A DNA stretch of 32,258 nucleotides, taken from the NCBI GenBank assembly GCA_902537275.1, contig CACBAW010000009.1, positions 1-32,258 of the forward strand. Direction: 5' to 3'. A program made the position numbers and the translations under genes. Origin of the DNA: an uncultured Synechococcaceae cyanobacterium. GTDB taxonomy: Bacteria; Cyanobacteriota; Cyanobacteriia; PCC-6307; Cyanobiaceae. Shown piece by piece: positions 3,956-21,140 of the stretch (position 1 is the first letter of the stretch; the number at the start of each line of letters is the position of its first letter). The notes beneath the pieces are model-generated. The model worked only from the letters and a program-made list of their open reading frames with translations. It did not search any database and was not told the DNA's origin.

Positions 3956-4849
3956 TTATAATCTCTTAGTTTTCTCTGTAAAAGCGGCCAAAATCCTTGA
4001 AAATATATTTACTGATAGTATCGATAAAACAAGAATAAAGGAAGCTGCCCAGGCTAATTTATTCTGAGCATCATAAGGTTCTAGAGCAAAGTTGTAGATC
4101 AAAACAGCCAAAGAACCCATCTCATAAAACAAGTCGCCAAAGCCTGTTATGTAATAGTAAGAGAATAAAGCCGTAAATATCAAAGGTGCTGTTTCACCTG
4201 CAGCTCTTGCGATTCCAAGTACAACGCCAGTAGCAATAGACCTAAAGGCAGAGGGCAAAGTAACTTTCAATATGGTTGTATACATACTTGCTCCAACGCC
4301 AAGAGAAGCATATCTTAATTCGTTTGGAACTAACTTTAAACCTTCGTCAGTGGTCTTAATCACAGTAGGCAACATCAATATTGAAAGCGCCATCCCTCCA
4401 GCTAAACCGCTGTACATACTCCCAAACAAGATCTTTGTAGAAACAATTAAGGCATAAATAAAGACACCCGCAATTATTGAGGGGACTCCCGCCAGAACAT
4501 TAACTCCGAATCTAATAAATCTTGTGAAAGCTCCGCCTTTAGAGTATTCAGCTAGATATATTCCACCACCAACACCTACTGGAATAGCGATGATTGAAGC
4601 AATAGTAGTTATTATCAATGTTCCGATCAATGCAGGATTAATACCACCTGCATCTAAATCATCTCCAGGGGGATTTGGTTCTAAAGTAAATAGTTCGGGT
4701 GTAATTTGGGATCCACCTTTGATGAGAATATAAGTCACCAGAAAAATCAAAGGGAGTATTGCGATCAATGCACAAATTACTGATAAAGAAGTAAAGAATT
4801 TATCTCCTATATTTCTTGATAATCTTTTCTGGTAATAGAGTGAATTCAT
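3956..4849 (-). CDS. pstA: Phosphate ABC transporter permease PstA
   Basis: The 297-residue protein has about six membrane segments; the first is at ~25-45 and a permease block spans ~75-285. The cytoplasmic coupling loop contains the conserved pattern ELRYASLGVGASMYTTILKV, and ARAAGETAPLIFTA is a PstA hallmark. It forms the phosphate channel with PstC and docks PstB. Its start is six bases after the pstC stop and its stop abuts pstB, consistent with one operon. Confidence 0.95.
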   Translation of the reverse strand: MNSLYYQKRLSRNIGDKFFTSLSVICALIAILPLIFLVTYILIKGGSQITPELFTLEPNPPGDDLDAGGINPALIGTLIITTIASIIAIPVGVGGGIYLAEYSKGGAFTRFIRFGVNVLAGVPSIIAGVFIYALIVSTKILFGSMYSGLAGGMALSILMLPTVIKTTDEGLKLVPNELRYASLGVGASMYTTILKVTLPSAFRSIATGVVLGIARAAGETAPLIFTALFSYYYITGFGDLFYEMGSLAVLIYNFALEPYDAQNKLAWAASFILVLSILSVNIFSRILAAFTEKTKRL

Positions 4850-4855
4850 AATTAT

Positions 4856-5803
4856 CTAATATTTGAGACTAAATTTCTTAACTAGCCACTGCGCAAAGAT
4901 ATTTACAACTAAAGAAAGGATCATCAGTACAAAAGCCGCATAAAACAGCGATGAAACCTGACTTCCATCAGACTCACCAAACTGGTTTGCGAGCATGGAG
5001 GAAATGGTATATCCAGGAGATAATAGAGACCAACTAAATGCATTTGAATTACCAATAATCATTGTCACAGCCATTGTTTCTCCCATTGCCCTACCTAAAG
5101 CCAATAGAACACCTGCCATAATTCCTGATAATGCTGCCGGCAAAATTACTGAAAATATTGTTTTCCATCTACTTGCTCCAATTCCATAAGCCGCATTTCT
5201 TAGTTTTTTAGGAACCTGATTAAGTGTATCCCTTGCAATGGATGTCACTATTGGCAAAAGCATTACTACTAAAATCAATATTGCTAACAAAGAATTCCTG
5301 CTTGTAGGTTCTGTACTGAATAAAGGTATCCAACCAAAGAAATTGTGTAAAAAGACAAAAAAGGCTCTAAAAAAAGGTTCCATTACAAATATTGCCCAAA
5401 GTCCCAATACAACTGATGGAATTGCTGCTAATAATTCAACAAAGGAACCTATTATTTCTCTAACAACTTTCGGTACAAAGTCCTCGGTAATAAATATTGC
5501 AGTTCCAACGCCCAAAGGGATAGTTATTAATAACGAAAGGAATGAGGTTACTAATGTGCCATATATTGCGGTAAAAGCTCCGTATTCATCTTTTACAGGA
5601 TTCCATTCAGAGGTTACTAAAAACTTCAAGCCATACCTTGAAAAGGAATCAAATGACTGAAAAAAGACTACTAAAATAATTCCTAAAAGTATTATTGCTA
5701 CGAAACTAGACAAGACTAGAGCGGTATTCTTAAAGATAATATCTATATTTTTTTCGATACCGAATCTTTTACGATTCTTGAAAAGAGTTAATTTCTCTTC
5801 CAT
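4856..5803 (-). CDS. pstC: Phosphate ABC transporter permease PstC
   Basis: The 315-residue permease has an N-terminal helix (~30-52), a periplasmic segment containing EWNPVKDEYGAF, and the PstC-typical blocks AIPSVVLGLWA and LGRAMGETMAVTMIIGN. The coupling loop reads RNAAYGIGASRWKTI. It is the partner of PstA. It is separated from pstS by 105 bases that hold a stem-loop, so it may be expressed at a lower level than the binding protein. Confidence 0.95.
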   Translation of the reverse strand: MEEKLTLFKNRKRFGIEKNIDIIFKNTALVLSSFVAIILLGIILVVFFQSFDSFSRYGLKFLVTSEWNPVKDEYGAFTAIYGTLVTSFLSLLITIPLGVGTAIFITEDFVPKVVREIIGSFVELLAAIPSVVLGLWAIFVMEPFFRAFFVFLHNFFGWIPLFSTEPTSRNSLLAILILVVMLLPIVTSIARDTLNQVPKKLRNAAYGIGASRWKTIFSVILPAALSGIMAGVLLALGRAMGETMAVTMIIGNSNAFSWSLLSPGYTISSMLANQFGESDGSQVSSLFYAAFVLMILSLVVNIFAQWLVKKFSLKY

Positions 5804-5850
5804 TAAAAAAAGAATATCTCTATAAATCTACTACTAAATGCTGTAAAAGA

Positions 5851-5868
5851 CTTTAAGAGGACTTAAAG
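5851..5868 (-). promoter_or_regulatory. Stem-loop between pstS and pstC
   Basis: A perfect 7-bp stem CTTTAAG / CTTAAAG with an AGGA tetraloop, itself flanked by GACTTT...AAAGTC, lies in the 105-base gap downstream of pstS and upstream of pstC. In ABC importers such elements often stabilise the binding-protein mRNA or attenuate read-through; that role is inferred here. Confidence 0.5.
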
Positions 5869-5908
5869 GTATATGAAAGTCATGATAATTTGACATCTAT
5901 TCAAAAAT

Positions 5909-6880
5909 TTAACTACTTATTTTTTGAACGGCAGCTCTTGATTTCAAAAGGATATTCCCTTTTAAGGGGATAAATCCAAGGGATGAAGCCTTATCTTGAT
6001 ACTCATCACTTAACAATGTATTAAAGGTTTGTTTGATTGCTTTAGTTTTTCTACCATTACCTTTTTCGTAAGCAAGTATCCATGTCAATGAAGTTATAGG
6101 GTAAGCTCCTTTTGCTAATGGATTAGGATTTTTACCCGCAAGATTTTCATCTAAAGTAATACCATTAAGAGCCTTGGCTCCTGATTCTGTAGATGGTTTT
6201 AGAAACTCCCCTGAAAGATTTTGAATTGCAGCAGCCTTAACATTACCTTTAATATATGACTGGTTTACATAACCAATTGCGCCTGGAGTGTTTTGAATTA
6301 CACCTGCAACACCAGAATTACCTTTTGCTCCAACACCTCCTGGCCACTTAACTGATTTACCAGTTCCTAAAGTCCATGTTGGAGAAAATTCTTCCATAGT
6401 GTTTGTGAAAGCCTTAGTAGTTCCTGAACCATCAGAACGATGTGTCCAAGTTAACTTACCTGATTTACAGCCTAATTCTTTCCAGTTTTTAACCATACCC
6501 ATAGCAACTCTTACTGCTTGCTCTTGAGTAAGTTTCAAATCACAATCATAGTTATAACCAAAAGCAATAGTTCCTCCAACCATAGGAATCTGAACTAATC
6601 CTCTTGTTACTTTTGCTATATCTTTATCCTTCATAGGATCATCAGAAGCACCAAAGTCTACTGTCTGATCAATAAAAGCTTTTCTTCCAGAGCCCGAACC
6701 AACTGCTTGGTAATTAACTCTTGGCCCCCCTGATTTGGCTAAGTCAAAAAACCACCTGGTATAAATTTTCGAAGGAAATGTAGCACCTGCTCCGCTCAAT
6801 CTTTTTGAAGCAATAGCTTCTTGAGAGAGAACTAATGAGATAGCAGAAGAAAAAATAAGAACTTTTTTGAAAATGCCCAC
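5909..6880 (-). CDS. pstS: Phosphate-binding periplasmic protein PstS
   Basis: The 323-residue protein starts with a signal peptide (cleavage near residues 20-25, after AIA). Phosphate-binding loops of the PstS family are visible: AGATFPSK (31-38), GSGSGRKAF (61-69), DFGASDDPM (75-83) and RSDGSGTTKAF. It delivers phosphate to PstC/PstA. Its ATG is followed upstream by ~165 bases of AT-rich leader. I looked there for tandem CTTAACCT-like Pho boxes and saw none that I would call, and no phoB/phoR gene is adjacent. Confidence 0.95.
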   Translation of the reverse strand: MGIFKKVLIFSSAISLVLSQEAIASKRLSGAGATFPSKIYTRWFFDLAKSGGPRVNYQAVGSGSGRKAFIDQTVDFGASDDPMKDKDIAKVTRGLVQIPMVGGTIAFGYNYDCDLKLTQEQAVRVAMGMVKNWKELGCKSGKLTWTHRSDGSGTTKAFTNTMEEFSPTWTLGTGKSVKWPGGVGAKGNSGVAGVIQNTPGAIGYVNQSYIKGNVKAAAIQNLSGEFLKPSTESGAKALNGITLDENLAGKNPNPLAKGAYPITSLTWILAYEKGNGRKTKAIKQTFNTLLSDEYQDKASSLGFIPLKGNILLKSRAAVQKISS

Positions 6881-7046
6881 TTTGTAATGAGAAATGAGTC
6901 TGTTAAATATAAATTACAACCAAAAGGTAATTGAAAAATTTAAAAATATAAAAATCAAATTATTTTGATAAAAAAAATTATTATATATATCGGCATTAAG
7001 AGCTCAGCTAAAAATTTAAATTTTCAATTAAATATCAACTCTTTAT

Positions 7047-7415
7047 TTAGAATTTAATTTTTGTTGTTACTCTGTTTTTATTTTGAGATTTGAATTCAAA
7101 AAGTCCTGTATCAGTAAATATGGTCAACTCATCTCCAGATGTTTCTTCAATTGCAATTCCTTCAGACTCTAAATTTTTTACATATACATTACCTAGAAGT
7201 CTTAGAGATTTATCATCCTTGTCAAAAGAAAGCTTGTCAGAATAAGCCTCAAAATTACCAATATTACTTTTAATAACTACATTTCCAATAGCCTCTAGAT
7301 CACCTTCTAAAGTATTTGTTTGAGAATCAGATGTAATTGTGTAATTAATTAATTCCTCAGCAAAAGAATATTCAGCTAATAAAAATAAAAAAGATGCAAA
7401 AAATAAGCTTTTCAT
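7047..7415 (-). CDS. LptA/OstA-like periplasmic protein
   Basis: The 122-residue protein has a signal peptide (cleavage near residue 19, after SFA) followed by one OstA/LptA-type beta domain: an N-terminal strand with TNTLEGDLEAIGNVVI, then a SDKLSFDKDDKSLRLLGNV repeat. In that family such domains build the lipopolysaccharide bridge across the periplasm. The domain assignment is moderately secure; the transport role is inferred. Its ATG follows the cytochrome stop without spacing, so the two are co-translated. Confidence 0.65.
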   Translation of the reverse strand: MKSLFFASFLFLLAEYSFAEELINYTITSDSQTNTLEGDLEAIGNVVIKSNIGNFEAYSDKLSFDKDDKSLRLLGNVYVKNLESEGIAIEETSGDELTIFTDTGLFEFKSQNKNRVTTKIKF

Positions 7416-7769
7416 TTACTCCCAACCCTTTTCTGCATTTTGAATAATCCATTGTGCAAGAACCTTATCCTCTCCATCCTTCAATTTATTTTTATAACCT
7501 TTCATAAAACCAATCCCATCATTAGCAATGATTGTTATTGAATTTACATCTGCTATTCCTCTTTTTTCAAGGTCGGAAAGTTTTAATGATTTAGATCCTT
7601 TGAGAACGACTGATCCACCTCTTACATGGCAGCCTGCACAAACATTTCTAAAAATTTTTTCTCCATCTCTAATATCAGAAGCCATTAGATATCTATTATG
7701 CAAAGAGGTTTGAAAAATAATTATTAAAGTTATTAAAGGAATTACAAATAGAAATTTAAATATTTTCAT
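7416..7769 (-). CDS. Cytochrome c6-like monohaem c-type cytochrome
   Basis: The 117-residue protein has an N-terminal hydrophobic segment (~4-20) serving as signal or anchor, haem-binding C44-A-G-C47-H48, and a candidate axial Met89 in GIGFMKGYKNKL where c6 has MPAFGGRL. It ends with NAEKGWE, close to the QAEKGW end of c6. The Met-loop differs from standard PetJ, so it may be a c6-like paralogue rather than the plastocyanin substitute. It would carry one electron in the lumen or periplasm. It is followed directly by the LptA-like gene. Confidence 0.8.
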   Translation of the reverse strand: MKIFKFLFVIPLITLIIIFQTSLHNRYLMASDIRDGEKIFRNVCAGCHVRGGSVVLKGSKSLKLSDLEKRGIADVNSITIIANDGIGFMKGYKNKLKDGEDKVLAQWIIQNAEKGWE

Positions 7770-7822
7770 TTGATTATTTCACCCACAATTAATCTAGCAA
7801 TTAATTCTGAATCTCGATCTAT

Positions 7823-8878
7823 CTACTTTAATAGCTCGACTGCTACAACAAGATTACCCAACAAACCATTCAAAATATTAAGCTGTTCTTTACTACCAAA
7901 TGCTATTAATACCTGACCTGGCTGAAGTATGAAATTACCGCCAGGATTAGTAAACAACTTTTCGTTTTCCTTAATGGCTAATATTTTCGCACCACTCTTT
8001 TTGCCTATTCCAAGTTCAGAAAGTGATCTTTTCTCTGCAGTTTCAAAAAGACTAATATCATTACTTAATTCAAATTCCTCAATTTCACATTCACTTCCAG
8101 CAAGAAGATCTAGAAAGTCAATAGCAATAGGTCTTAATGCCATGGATGCCATTGCTCTTCCAGCTGCGATATAAGGACTTACAACTATGCTTGCACCAGC
8201 TAATCTCAACTTACTTGCAGCTTCTTCAGTTCCAGCTCTTGCAATTACTCTTATAGAACTTCTTATTCCTTTGGCGCTTAAAACGACATATAAATTAGCC
8301 GCATCATTAGGTAAGGTAACAACCAAACTTTTGCATTTTTCTAATCCTGCTAGTTTTAAAGTCTCGTCAAGAGTTGCATCAGCACAAAGAACTTCTAAAC
8401 CATTTTCTTCCGCAATCTTTTTTCTATCTTCATCGCTCTCAACCACAATAATTGGAATATTTTGCGTTTTTATTTGGTTAGATATTTCCTGACCTACCCT
8501 CCCATATCCGCACAAAATTACATGATTTTCCATTTTTCTAAGAATTCTTTTAAAACGTAATTCGTTTACTCTTTGAAAATAGCCAGATTCGAATAATCTA
8601 ACAGCTTTTTGAAAGGTAAATTGAATAAAGATCAATCCGCCAACGATTACTAAAACAGTAACGATCCTGCCTTCAGGACTTAAAGGTTGAACTTCTCCAA
8701 AACCAATAGTGGTTATTGTAATCAGAACCATCCATAAGCAATCACTCCATTCCCATCCCTCTGTTATTCGGTAGCCAATTGCACCTAAAAAAAACAGAAA
8801 GAATAAAGAATAAATAAGACCAAACCAAGGCCTTAAATAGTCTTTAATAAAATAGAACTCAAATAATCTAAGCTTCAT
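7823..8878 (-). CDS. Ion channel fused to TrkA-N (RCK) domains, probable K+ channel
   Basis: The 351-residue protein has two transmembrane helices (~20-37 and ~72-90) flanking a pore loop with filter TTIGFGE (56-62), where a K+ channel would have T-V-G-Y-G. It continues into a Rossmann RCK domain: GYGRVG (124-129) and E147 at the end of the second strand. A TrkA-C-like domain follows (~260-351). The order matches prokaryotic two-helix K+ channels gated by cytoplasmic RCK rings. Ion selectivity is inferred because Val is replaced by Ile and Tyr by Phe in the filter. Confidence 0.85.
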   Translation of the reverse strand: MKLRLFEFYFIKDYLRPWFGLIYSLFFLFFLGAIGYRITEGWEWSDCLWMVLITITTIGFGEVQPLSPEGRIVTVLVIVGGLIFIQFTFQKAVRLFESGYFQRVNELRFKRILRKMENHVILCGYGRVGQEISNQIKTQNIPIIVVESDEDRKKIAEENGLEVLCADATLDETLKLAGLEKCKSLVVTLPNDAANLYVVLSAKGIRSSIRVIARAGTEEAASKLRLAGASIVVSPYIAAGRAMASMALRPIAIDFLDLLAGSECEIEEFELSNDISLFETAEKRSLSELGIGKKSGAKILAIKENEKLFTNPGGNFILQPGQVLIAFGSKEQLNILNGLLGNLVVAVELLK

Positions 8879-9062
8879 ATCCCTTATTATCGTTAACTAT
8901 TCAAAAATTTCAAAAAAATTTTCTATTATGTTCCTAAAACTATTTATTTGTTTAAGTGAAATATATACTAAGCAGAATAATTATATTTATTTTCGTAGCT
9001 CTATGCATTAAACAAATGATTACTGTCTCAGGTCTTAATTTAATGCTTCATTAAAAGTTAAT

Positions 9063-16954: not shown

Positions 16955-17209
16955 ATGGATGCTCTTACTAGTTTTATAGTTGTTATCATCGCAATTACAA
17001 TACAATTCTCTTTATACGCCATCAAAAGGTTACAGGAACCTTTAGAACCAAATTATTTGATAGATAAAAATTCGAAAAAAATTAAAAATTATATGGGTAA
17101 ATTCTGGAAAAATGCCGAAATAACAAATGGAAGATTAGCTATGATTGGATTTTTGGCTTTAATAATAAACTACGGTCTTTTTGGGTGGATAATTCCTGGG
17201 TTTATTTAA
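16955..17209 (+). CDS. hli: High-light-inducible protein (Hli/Scp family)
   Basis: The 84-residue protein ends with a chlorophyll a/b-binding helix containing E55-x-x-N58-G59-R60-x-A62-M63-x-G65 (NAEITNGRLAMIGFLALI) and GLFGWIIPGFI, the Hli/LHC-superfamily signature. Hli proteins bind chlorophyll and carotenoid and protect photosystem assembly under excess light or stress. Unusually for the shortest Hlis, a first hydrophobic segment (residues ~6-24) precedes the binding helix, giving a possible two-helix topology. It is preceded by a long leader with paired palindromes. Confidence 0.9.
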   Translation: MDALTSFIVVIIAITIQFSLYAIKRLQEPLEPNYLIDKNSKKIKNYMGKFWKNAEITNGRLAMIGFLALIINYGLFGWIIPGFI

Positions 17210-18402: not shown

Positions 18403-18693
18403 TTACTGGAATTTAGTAGTAACAATTTGCCAACCTCCTGAAATTAATTCATTCCATGTTTCGCAAGCACACTCAATAGAATGAAGCCTTGAATTTTTAA
18501 TTTGGGCTGGTTCACCTAATTCATTTGCATGGAAAAGATGAGTATATACTTTTAAGTTATTAGATACAGATTTCTTATAACTCTCAAAAAAAATTAATAA
18601 ACCACTTTTTTTGTTAAACAACCAGCCATTTGGGGGGTCAATAAGACTGCCACGATAAAAATAAGTCCGAACATTAGCGACTCCTGAAGTCAT
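18403..18693 (-). CDS. DUF1651-like protein, copy A
   Basis: The 96-residue protein contains GWLFNKKSGLLIFF, a YTHLFHANELGEPAQIKNS stretch and the C-terminal ACETWNELISGGWQIV, the Trp-rich end typical of the marine-cyanobacterial DUF1651 family. It is paralogous to the protein at 20841-21140 (shared ANV N-terminus, GWL, AN-x-LGEP, W-x-x-L...GW). The two genes also share a promoter and palindrome. Function is unknown. Confidence 0.75.
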   Translation of the reverse strand: MTSGVANVRTYFYRGSLIDPPNGWLFNKKSGLLIFFESYKKSVSNNLKVYTHLFHANELGEPAQIKNSRLHSIECACETWNELISGGWQIVTTKFQ

Positions 18694-19192: not shown

Positions 19193-19450
19193 GTGTCCAA
19201 TAAATTTTATGAATGGTGGAAAAAACATAGAAAAGTTGTAACCTATGGAGCTTTTATCATCTTGTTTGGTTTTTATTTATCTCCTGTTGTCAAAGAAGCA
19301 AAATACAAAAACCAATGTATTAAATACTCTACTAAAGGAGCTTTAACTAAATTTAATAAGGACGATATAGGAGAAACTTTACTAGAAGAAACAGGTTTGA
19401 ATATTGATGAACTAGCAAAGATTGAAGGTTATAAGAATTGCATTAATTAA
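19193..19450 (+). CDS. One-helix membrane protein with exposed domain (85 aa, GTG start)
   Basis: GTG 19193 starts MSNKFYEWWKKHRKVVTYGA, a membrane helix follows (~18-33), and an outer domain of about 50 residues carries Cys in NQCIKYS and YKNCIN that could form a disulfide. The topology resembles a small periplasmic anchor protein. It begins a close plus-strand series ending in the mini-ligase. Function is unknown. Confidence 0.55.
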   Translation: MSNKFYEWWKKHRKVVTYGAFIILFGFYLSPVVKEAKYKNQCIKYSTKGALTKFNKDDIGETLLEETGLNIDELAKIEGYKNCIN

Positions 19451-19481: not shown

Positions 19482-19688
19482 ATGACTAAAGGTATGTTTA
19501 AATTTATTTTATTGATATTATTATTTGGATTTATATCAATAAGTCCAAAAACAAAATATTTGGTTGGCATAACTCTAAAAGAAATTTCTTCATTTCTTTT
19601 ATGGACTGTTAAATATGAAGATAGAGAAAAATGGATTATAGATAAACCAAGTTGGATACCTAGCCAAAAACTTAAGCCATCGTATTAA
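19482..19688 (+). CDS. Membrane protein upstream of mini-ligase (68 aa)
   Basis: An N-terminal hydrophobic helix (MFKFILLILLFGFISIS) is followed by a second weaker hydrophobic stretch (LKEISSFLLWTV) and a polar tail ending SWIPSQKLKPSY. Its TAA directly precedes the ATG of the ligase-like gene without any spacing, so the two are probably translationally coupled. Confidence 0.6.
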   Translation: MTKGMFKFILLILLFGFISISPKTKYLVGITLKEISSFLLWTVKYEDREKWIIDKPSWIPSQKLKPSY

Positions 19689-20438
19689 ATGAAGACTTAT
19701 TTAGAAGAACGAGTTGAATGTTATGACGATAATTATAGAAATGGTAATGCTTTAATTTCTGATAAGCAGTTCGACCAACTTGAAAAAAATTTATCAAGAA
19801 CAAACCCTAATTGTGATTACTTTAAAAAGAAAAATAAACTAGTTTTGCCTTCATTAGAAAAGGATTCAATAGATGAATTTTTGAAAGGATTATTAGTAGA
19901 TACCAGATTATTAATTGAACCAAAAATTGATGGTTGTGCTGTTGCTTTGCAATATAGGAATGGTACCTTGGAGAAAGCAATTTCAAGAAAAGGGGCAGAC
20001 GTTACTAGTAAACTTATTAAAGTCCAAGACATTCCCAATAATCTCCCTTTACAAGGAGTTCTTCAAGTTAGAGGTGAATTATATGCACCCAACCAAATTC
20101 CAAATATCTCCCAGAGAATCGCTTCTGGATTTCTAAGAGCTAAAGAAGGATTTTCTGAAAATCTTAGCTTCTGCGCATTTCAAATACTTAATTCAACACT
20201 TAACCAATATGAGTCCAAAAAGAGTCTTTCAAAGCTTGGCTTCACAATCCCTCAGGATATTTCATGCAACTTTACGAGCCAAGTTAAAGTTTTTAGAAAA
20301 CAATGGCTAGAAGGTAAGCTTTTTAGTAAATATCCAACAGATGGAATAGTAGTAAAAATAAATTCTAGAAAATTACAATTGATTAGAGAAAAATCAAATT
20401 TAGATTATCCTTATTGGCAAGTGGCAATAAAACGTTAA
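19689..20438 (+). CDS. Stand-alone NAD+-dependent DNA ligase adenylation domain (LigA-like, 249 aa)
   Basis: The protein has an N-terminal Ia-like segment (ISDKQFDQLEKNL, 23-35) that in LigA contacts NMN, and then the nucleotidyltransferase motifs. These are EPKIDG with lysine nucleophile K79, a shortened RKGADV (100-105), VRGE (127-130), DGIVVK (218-223) and WQVAIKR (243-249, K248). It stops right after motif V, so the OB-fold, zinc finger, HhH and BRCT domains of the ~670-residue LigA are all missing. It could self-adenylate; sealing would need a partner. It lies between coupled membrane-peptide genes. Confidence 0.88.
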   Translation: MKTYLEERVECYDDNYRNGNALISDKQFDQLEKNLSRTNPNCDYFKKKNKLVLPSLEKDSIDEFLKGLLVDTRLLIEPKIDGCAVALQYRNGTLEKAISRKGADVTSKLIKVQDIPNNLPLQGVLQVRGELYAPNQIPNISQRIASGFLRAKEGFSENLSFCAFQILNSTLNQYESKKSLSKLGFTIPQDISCNFTSQVKVFRKQWLEGKLFSKYPTDGIVVKINSRKLQLIREKSNLDYPYWQVAIKR

Positions 20439-20551
20439 TGGAATTAATTCACCAGATTTTTCCTACTTGGCATATTTACTTGGATATGTTTTTGGTTGGC
20501 TTTGCAACTTACGGTTTTCTGAGAATTAAGAAAAAAATAAAAACTAAATAA
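20438..20551 (+). CDS. Tiny membrane peptide coupled to mini-ligase (37 aa)
   Basis: ATG at 20438 overlaps the ligase TAA in TAATG. The frame encodes MELIHQIFPTWHIYLDMFLV, a continuing helix (GFATYGFL) and a basic end RIKKKIKTK. One membrane span with a strongly positive C-terminal tail, which could stay on the cytoplasmic side and contact nucleic acid or protein. Function is unknown. Confidence 0.65.
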   Translation: MELIHQIFPTWHIYLDMFLVGFATYGFLRIKKKIKTK

Positions 20552-20714: not shown

Positions 20715-20844
20715 ATTTATAGTCTTCATCAAGTTCAATGACAACACCATTAAAAAATTCTGCTAATAATTTTGATGGATCTTGCATAGATATCTTTCTA
20801 TCTACTTTTGATAATTTCTTTTTGATTGGATTTAAGTTAGTCAT
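20704..20844 (-). CDS. Small charged protein (46 aa)
   Basis: ATG 20844 overlaps the stop of DUF1651-like copy B in the sequence ATGA. The frame encodes MTNLNPIKKKLSKVDRKISM, a LLAEFFNGVVIELDED segment and a YKYDS end. It is soluble, basic at the start and acidic at the end. The overlap indicates coupled translation. Unknown family. Confidence 0.6.
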   Translation of the reverse strand: MTNLNPIKKKLSKVDRKISMQDPSKLLAEFFNGVVIELDEDYKYDS

Positions 20845-21140
20845 ACAGATTCAGGTAATTCAAGTTCTTCAAAAGTCCAACCTTCTAATTGAAGGTCATG
20901 CCATTTATCCCAAGCATTATCCAAATACATTTGAGTGGATGATTTAATTGCAATTGGCTCACCAAGATCATTTGCATAATATGTATGAGCAAAAATTCTA
21001 ATACTATTTCTTGGAGATTTTTTATTCCTTATAAATAAAATTAATCTGTTGCGGTCGGGACTAAGCAACCAACCACTTGGGGACTCATTACGATAACCGT
21101 AAGAAAAATTAGTCCAAACATTAGCTCCTCCTAAAGTCAT
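20841..21140 (-). CDS. DUF1651-like protein, copy B
   Basis: The 99-residue paralogue of the protein at 18403-18693 has SGWLLSPDRNRLILFI, a HTYYANDLGEPIAIKSS stretch and NAWDKWHDLQLEGWTFEELE. By eye, conserved positions are concentrated in the GWL, AN-x-LGEP and W-x-x-L-x-x-x-GW blocks. It heads a three-gene overlapping unit, whereas copy A is followed by a four-cysteine gene, so only the DUF1651 gene and its promoter were duplicated or retained. Confidence 0.75.
   Translation of the reverse strand: MTLGGANVWTNFSYGYRNESPSGWLLSPDRNRLILFIRNKKSPRNSIRIFAHTYYANDLGEPIAIKSSTQMYLDNAWDKWHDLQLEGWTFEELELPESV

Follow-up and report, generated by a model that had tools for sequence, protein, structure and literature searches.

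A mini NAD+ ligase of Prochlorococcus that ends at its adenylation domain, and its relatives in phages and recombinase-linked elements

What can a DNA ligase still do when it stops where its adenylation domain stops? The question is raised by a stretch of 32,258 nucleotides (the window, meaning this whole stretch) from a Prochlorococcus genome that is 58.5% complete. ORF calling places in it a mini NAD+ ligase of 249 residues, whose relatives in the named collection are Prochlorococcus as well, strains MIT 9401 and MIT 9314 included. Is it a LigA cut short, one half of a split enzyme, or a catalyst of another kind? The features on which the answer first depends are the following.

19689..20438, + strand: mini NAD+ ligase, made of subdomain Ia (residues ~1-60) and the nucleotidyltransferase domain up to motif V
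19923..19925, + strand: codon of K79 (KIDG, motif I), by homology the expected AMP-adduct site

The preliminary description of this DNA had seen a LigA-type adenylation domain devoid of the OB, zinc, HhH and BRCT parts and ending at the domain boundary, and both observations hold. PF01653 is the sole Pfam domain of the protein (E 2e-19), with no Pfam match to OB fold, zinc, HhH or BRCT, and in none of the window's reading frames does a profile built from LigA/LigB sequences find an OB fold or a LigA domain beyond it. The proposed profile search of adenylation domain versus full LigA gives the same picture: the NCBIfam LigA/LigB models match only in part, the best at 74.6 bits against cut-offs of 369 to 1051, and the LigA model TIGR00575 demands 444. 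The motifs run through to V, namely KIDG (motif I; K79-D81-G82), R100, RGE at 128-130, D218-G219, K223 and K248 (motif V), which is the penultimate residue, so that the protein stops one residue later. In LigA, according to a passage of a published account, subdomain 1a binds NMN and 1b the AMP part (PMC5052709); in the alignment, Y16, D25 and D29 of the window protein match the NMN-contacting positions of LigA subdomain Ia, and two further LigA positions are changed (H/Y23 to R17, Y35 to F28). The AlphaFold model (pLDDT 88; input of 25 sequences, the window and related loci) is matched best in the PDB by adenylation domains of LigA (TM ~0.7 by query length, E 4e-17 to 1e-12), with the PR1 phage heterodimeric ligase next in the list. 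The ligases matched in this way have more than an adenylation domain in life.

We regard the OB-less mini ligase as a variant of the NAD+ ligases and as no new kind of system. Like the LigA adenylation domain (PF01653; PDB 1b04, 1ta8, 4lh6, 7k72), it joins subdomain Ia to a nucleotidyltransferase domain with motifs I, III, IV and V; in LigA, however, this is one part of ~650-700 residues. The mini protein consists of nothing else, falls ~60-70 residues short of the crystallised LigA domain and is marked by a family-wide deletion in TRGDGxxGED. LigB of Enterobacteria has a similar Ia segment, and its NCBIfam model covers window residues 5-246, but it counts 560 residues, has an OB fold and lacks the four-residue deletion, the mini protein being the reverse on the last two points. 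The split NAD+ ligase of T5 and PR1 (phrog_3359 and phrog_3498; PDB 9hu3, 9i5i) is likewise a case of a short NAD+-ligase catalytic protein on mobile DNA, at ~27% identity to the mini protein over the whole length. Yet T5 subunit A (323 residues) includes an OB fold and is joined by a 259-residue partner encoded in its own gene; the mini family has neither. The publication cited above for LigA gives nucleotidyltransferase plus OB domains as the catalytic core of a DNA ligase (PMC5052709). The open-licence literature searched yielded neither an OB-less NAD+ ligase nor a recombinase-ligase pair.

Could the missing part be encoded elsewhere? T5 dnlj1/dnlj2 and the PR1 heterodimer (PDB 9hu3) demonstrate that NAD+ ligases can be split, and the mini protein may be a catalytic subunit of this sort, but we consider it unlikely. 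T5 subunit A itself carries the OB fold that the minis lack, and a separate OB partner frame, which had been anticipated as a possibility, was not found in the stretches searched. The OB profile built from LigA/LigB sequences was run in six frames over 127 stretches (1,377,207 bases), and 120 of them gave no OB or dnlj2-like frame, the other seven being LigA, LigB and T5 controls. Since the stretches from phages and elements are incomplete, and since a partner may have diverged strongly, such a search could overlook one. The profile does match T5 subunit A (dnlj1; E 2e-17), phmmer with T5 dnlj2 over the same stretches matches T5 and LigA stretches only, and PF03120 occurs in none of the 61 same-genus genomes sampled and in 11 of 14 controls.

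Which ligases, then, does the genus have? The count takes in the window's own genome and 60 good ones, 61 in all, with controls exceeding the TIGR00575 cut-off in 11 of 14 cases. Full-length LigA is missing from 58 of the 60 good genomes, the cut-off being passed only in G370 and G373. Given this absence and a 93-residue C-terminal piece of LigA kept in one further genome, G237, the enzyme was lost here; elsewhere in the family, genera retain LigA at full length, some together with minis. An ATP-dependent ligase domain is found in 58/61 genomes, one or two in each, and in the window's own incomplete genome there is none. With LigA nearly absent, replication in these very abundant cells probably depends on ATP-dependent ligases. 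A passage of a 2019 paper mentions a "replicative NAD-dependent enzyme" alongside ATP-dependent ligases in some strains (PMC6698739); this enzyme was not found in most genomes examined here.

The ATP-dependent ligases also bear on the point at which the mini protein ends. Truncated T4 RNA ligase 2, reduced to its nucleotidyltransferase, performs steps 1 and 3 and needs another enzyme for step 2. By analogy, the mini ligase might seal only ends that are already adenylated; it is cut at the same place, right after motif V, and the one or two ATP-dependent ligases of the genus could supply step 2. We hold this possibility to be quite improbable.

The position of the protein among NAD+ ligases was addressed with 36 mini proteins and 11 LigA/LigB/T5 sequences. 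A shortened RKGADV motif had been remarked on in the window protein; it is real and extends to the family, four residues of the TRGDGxxGED motif being deleted in 36/36 minis and in 0/11 of the others. A branch with support 99/97 separates the two sets in the maximum-likelihood tree, which is midpoint-rooted for drawing only and has long branches for LigB, T5 and L312. K79 is invariant in the 25 sequences of alignment A2 and in the 47 rows of the family/LigA comparison. The rows nearest to the window copy are L151, linked to a tyrosine recombinase, and L152, linked to a serine recombinase, and the copy groups with these two and with L139 and L254, found at tRNA-Ser (84/95, an unstarred branch).

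Phages carry the family too. IMG/VR returned no relatives for the window protein alone and 28 for the family alignment, comprising 24 uninterrupted mini frames (231-280 residues), one frameshifted frame and three full-length LigA. In those marine phage contigs that were tested as representatives, the gene has next to it a primase-helicase, of VapE type or other, and a minor tail protein; the L288 phage copy lies beside a RusA resolvase and the L289 copy beside a PD-(D/E)XK exonuclease. The 15 phage members of alignment A2 retain K79, G82, E130, D218, G219 and K248. Catalytic residues are kept in the window copy, the recombinase-linked copies and the phage copies alike. The mini ligase is very probably a distinct OB-less family of mobile or phage origin. 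A phage or mobile source had been suggested for the adenylation-only protein, and the phage contigs, the recombinase-linked copies and the family tree all speak for it.

A truncated or frameshifted LigA is rejected as an explanation, given a separate family with its own deletion, phage relatives and 0/81 broken copies at the locus of the window; a sequencing error as the cause of the short frame is excluded by the same 81 copies, in which the frame is equally short. That the protein is a dead LigA remnant kept by chance draws on the absence of full LigA from 58/60 good genomes and on the C-terminal relic in G237. It is nevertheless extremely unlikely, provided that the tree is right, because the family is separate and has its own deletion, occurs in phages, is unbroken in 81 copies at a dN/dS of 0.185, and because LigA and partial mini-ligase matches coexist in G370 and G373.

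What company does the gene keep in the chromosome? Most genomes of the genus have a window-like copy, beside purK, and a second copy, ~50% identical, beside a short-chain dehydrogenase (SDR) gene. Outside these two loci, 20 full-length copies were examined, 13 from the orthologue search and seven from added genomes, the latter chosen for many repeat matches, so that the sample is non-random. Nine of the 20 lie directly 3' of an intact recombinase gene, eight by an ATGA four-base overlap and L219 by one base. The recombinase is a large serine recombinase in three (L149, L152, L219) and a tyrosine recombinase in six (L146, L151, L220, L222, L257, L264); L151 and L220 were called by a PHROG integrase profile, and L146, L222, L257 and L264 by similarity to L220. 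An HK97-type capsid gene is nearby in L146, L152, L220, L257 and L264, five of the nine. Six more copies follow a recombinase remnant, which is a C-terminal piece in L150 and, in the tRNA-Ser copies L139, L254, L255 and L256 and in L263, no more than a tail overlapping the ligase and up to 33 codons long; against the end of the best intact partner, 0 or 1 of 1000 shuffles score as high as these tails. Four copies (L143, L147, L266, L267) have a gene that is Xis-like by eye, and L137 has neither recombinase nor Xis-like gene. Further intact recombinase-ligase pairs are L319 and L331, and in the pair L350 a stop lies inside the ligase.

Seen from the recombinases, the ligase lies 3' of 8 of 30 tyrosine-recombinase loci, two of the eight being truncated. 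Serine-recombinase matches in 101 genomes number four, three followed by the ligase and the fourth a fragment. The ligase is an accessory of some integration modules and not their hallmark. Its presence after two unrelated recombinases argues against a single direct mechanism shared with the recombinase and suggests service to the DNA of the element instead of to the chemistry of one enzyme.

These elements invite comparison with tycheposons, the integrative elements of Prochlorococcus, defined by a tyrosine recombinase, a tRNA attachment site and cargo. A possible likeness lies in L151, where a tRNA adjoins the tyrosine recombinase, in the capsid genes and in the restriction-modification cargo, the order in L151 being tRNA-Ser, tyrosine recombinase, ligase and type I restriction-modification cargo. 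Unlike tycheposons under this definition, the elements here also have serine recombinases, and the window copy has no recombinase. In L151 the cargo directly 3' of the recombinase-ligase pair spans 4849-8902, with HsdM (Pfam) and the next two ORFs, which are unnamed. On the ORF maps, the serine-recombinase elements L152 and L219 appear to interrupt the host gloA near its 3' end, and themselves carry a complete gloA copy.

Does the protein have to act on DNA at all? A non-ligase nucleotidyltransferase, with a protein, an RNA terminus or a small molecule as the acceptor of AMP (the AMPylation or capping first suggested), would suit the missing OB fold, the shortened motif and the weak PF09414 RNA_ligase match of phage member L305 (E 0.0015). 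We judge it improbable: the enzymes next to the relatives are all DNA enzymes (recombinases, primase-helicase, RusA, exonuclease), and the PADLOC defence models match none of the six proteins tested. By the latter result a defence system is rejected as well.

The reading to which we lean, with slightly more for it than against it, is that the mini ligase is an NAD+-dependent adenylating, DNA-joining helper of mobile-element recombination that has become fixed in a host clade. K79 would take AMP from NAD+ with the aid of subdomain Ia, releasing NMN, as the conserved residues and the established chemistry of LigA indicate. The charged protein may then adenylate a 5'-phosphate, either at a nick or at an end of recombining or replicating mobile DNA, and help to seal it; for these two DNA steps, 2 and 3, we infer the role from the neighbours of the relatives. 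With no OB fold, either a partner, perhaps the co-translated recombinase of the element or some other protein, would hold the DNA in its place, or only part of the reaction would be carried out. The window copy could be an orphan left beside purK after loss of the recombinase, with catalytic residues intact and still selected, and may now be a host repair helper. It counts against the reading that an isolated adenylation domain of LigA is not known to seal nicks efficiently.

A family stopping at motif V would be a minimal NAD+ enzyme and makes the purpose of the OB fold directly testable. Its coupling to recombinases of two unrelated kinds is a hint that integration has a common requirement, so far overlooked, for adenylation or sealing. 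More tentatively, and less likely than not, OB-less NAD+ ligases could be widespread in marine phages and integrative elements, co-translated with serine or tyrosine recombinases and lending a strand-joining step to these or to the DNA intermediates of the element; one copy would have become fixed in those photosynthetic bacteria that are the most abundant of all and that have otherwise lost the NAD+ ligase LigA.

How well is the window copy kept? Orthologues at least 89% identical are present in 39/61 same-genus genomes searched, its own included. The alignment of the purK locus holds 81 copies, the window and 80 named loci, none with an internal stop, and dN/dS is 0.185 for the ligase and 0.125 for purK. 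K79, G82, R100, D104, R128-G129-E130, D218-G219, K223 and K248 are invariant in all 81 copies, while D25, D29 and D81 each differ in one; amino-acid constraint spans the whole protein, Ia residues included. The window copy has its catalytic residues and is under purifying selection, and it stands out against its decayed chromosomal cousins. In sister genera, chromosomal copies have lost subdomain Ia partly or wholly, along with catalytic positions (D81, E130, D218 or K248, for example); L135, the copy linked to the dehydrogenase, carries D29K, D218N and K248E. That several chromosomal relatives persist despite lost catalytic residues suggests a different role for part of the family. A 2018 paper includes, among the genes it lists as LLI-specific, a pair from NATL2A called "DNA ligase", 603 and 687 bp long (PMC6102989); by length and divergent arrangement, the L282 pair (200 and 228 residues) is probably this pair.

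Another question concerns the small membrane proteins that bracket the ligase at the purK locus, within the following features.

18403-18693 and 20841-21140, - strand: two DUF1651 genes (Pfam) flanking the ligase block
19193..19450, + strand: predicted membrane peptide of 85 residues (u85), in 79/80 named loci; dN/dS 0.171
19482..19688, + strand: predicted membrane peptide of 68 residues (u68); dN/dS 0.436, internal stops in 5/77
20438..20551, + strand: predicted membrane peptide of 37 residues, in 80/80 named loci; dN/dS 0.137

The bracketing is as tight as first described: the u68 stop at 19686-19688 abuts the ligase ATG at 19689, and the 37-residue frame begins within the TAATG of the ligase stop and ends in the Lys/Arg-rich LRIKKKIKTK. 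The functional pairing proposed on this basis fares unevenly. On the upstream side it fails, as u68 is weakly constrained (dN/dS 0.436) and recurs in only 3 of 105 other stretches, always inside the same u85-u68-ligase block; u68 is probably not a functional partner, and upstream coupling as a general functional unit is rejected. For the 37-residue peptide the claim stands in part, through its low dN/dS and its occurrence 3' of the ligase in L263 and of a ligase remnant in L265; it is absent from the nine recombinase-linked copies. Conservation of the neighbourhood, which was to serve as a check, is of little weight: the gene order is common to the 80 named loci, but these came out of a single scan as its top matches and are thus close kin, so that a common order says little alone.

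Neither a recombinase remnant upstream of the ligase nor a tRNA was found in the window, and the recombinase and attachment site of tycheposons are absent at the window copy. The promoter scan gave six promoter-like sites against a shuffle mean of 9.0, hence no excess, and the terminator scan gave none. The right-hand DUF1651 gene (20841-21140) is retained in 80/80 named loci, and a high-light-inducible protein gene at 16955-17209 has a phage-type profile match (phrog_178, E 1.7e-15).

Finally, the 3' end of the gene has a history of its own.

20355..20440, + strand: last 27 ligase codons plus stop, a dispersed repeat with copies elsewhere that lack the rest of the gene

Each of 81/81 genomes has at least one match to this stretch, full gene copies counted. 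Most tail fragments compared have an abrupt left edge at codon 223, and tail copies are joined to differing genes on either side (L140, L155-L162, L168, L205-L219), a pattern that site-specific or homologous recombination may have produced. Might the gene matter as DNA, its 3' end being a recombination site and the protein secondary? The many tail copies without the rest of the gene, with their sharp left edges, would fit, but the amino-acid constraint along the entire protein, Ia included, makes this very unlikely. The 3' end may also be the attachment site of the recombinases, given its copies in many contexts with sharp left edges. Yet these left edges differ between sites, a second repeat often precedes them, and in L152, L257, L264 and L220 the element runs on past the ligase, so that gene and element end at different places.

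A second dispersed repeat, a 5' start sequence MKRLLL... with 51 matches, often lies 5' of the tail copies and also precedes unrelated short genes and terminators; its loci are L137, L147, L157-L162, L205-L210, L217 and L263. Island genes look as if they had been pieced together from 5' and 3' ends that are themselves repeats. In L219, a gloA gene has tail copies on both sides, in the manner of a cassette.
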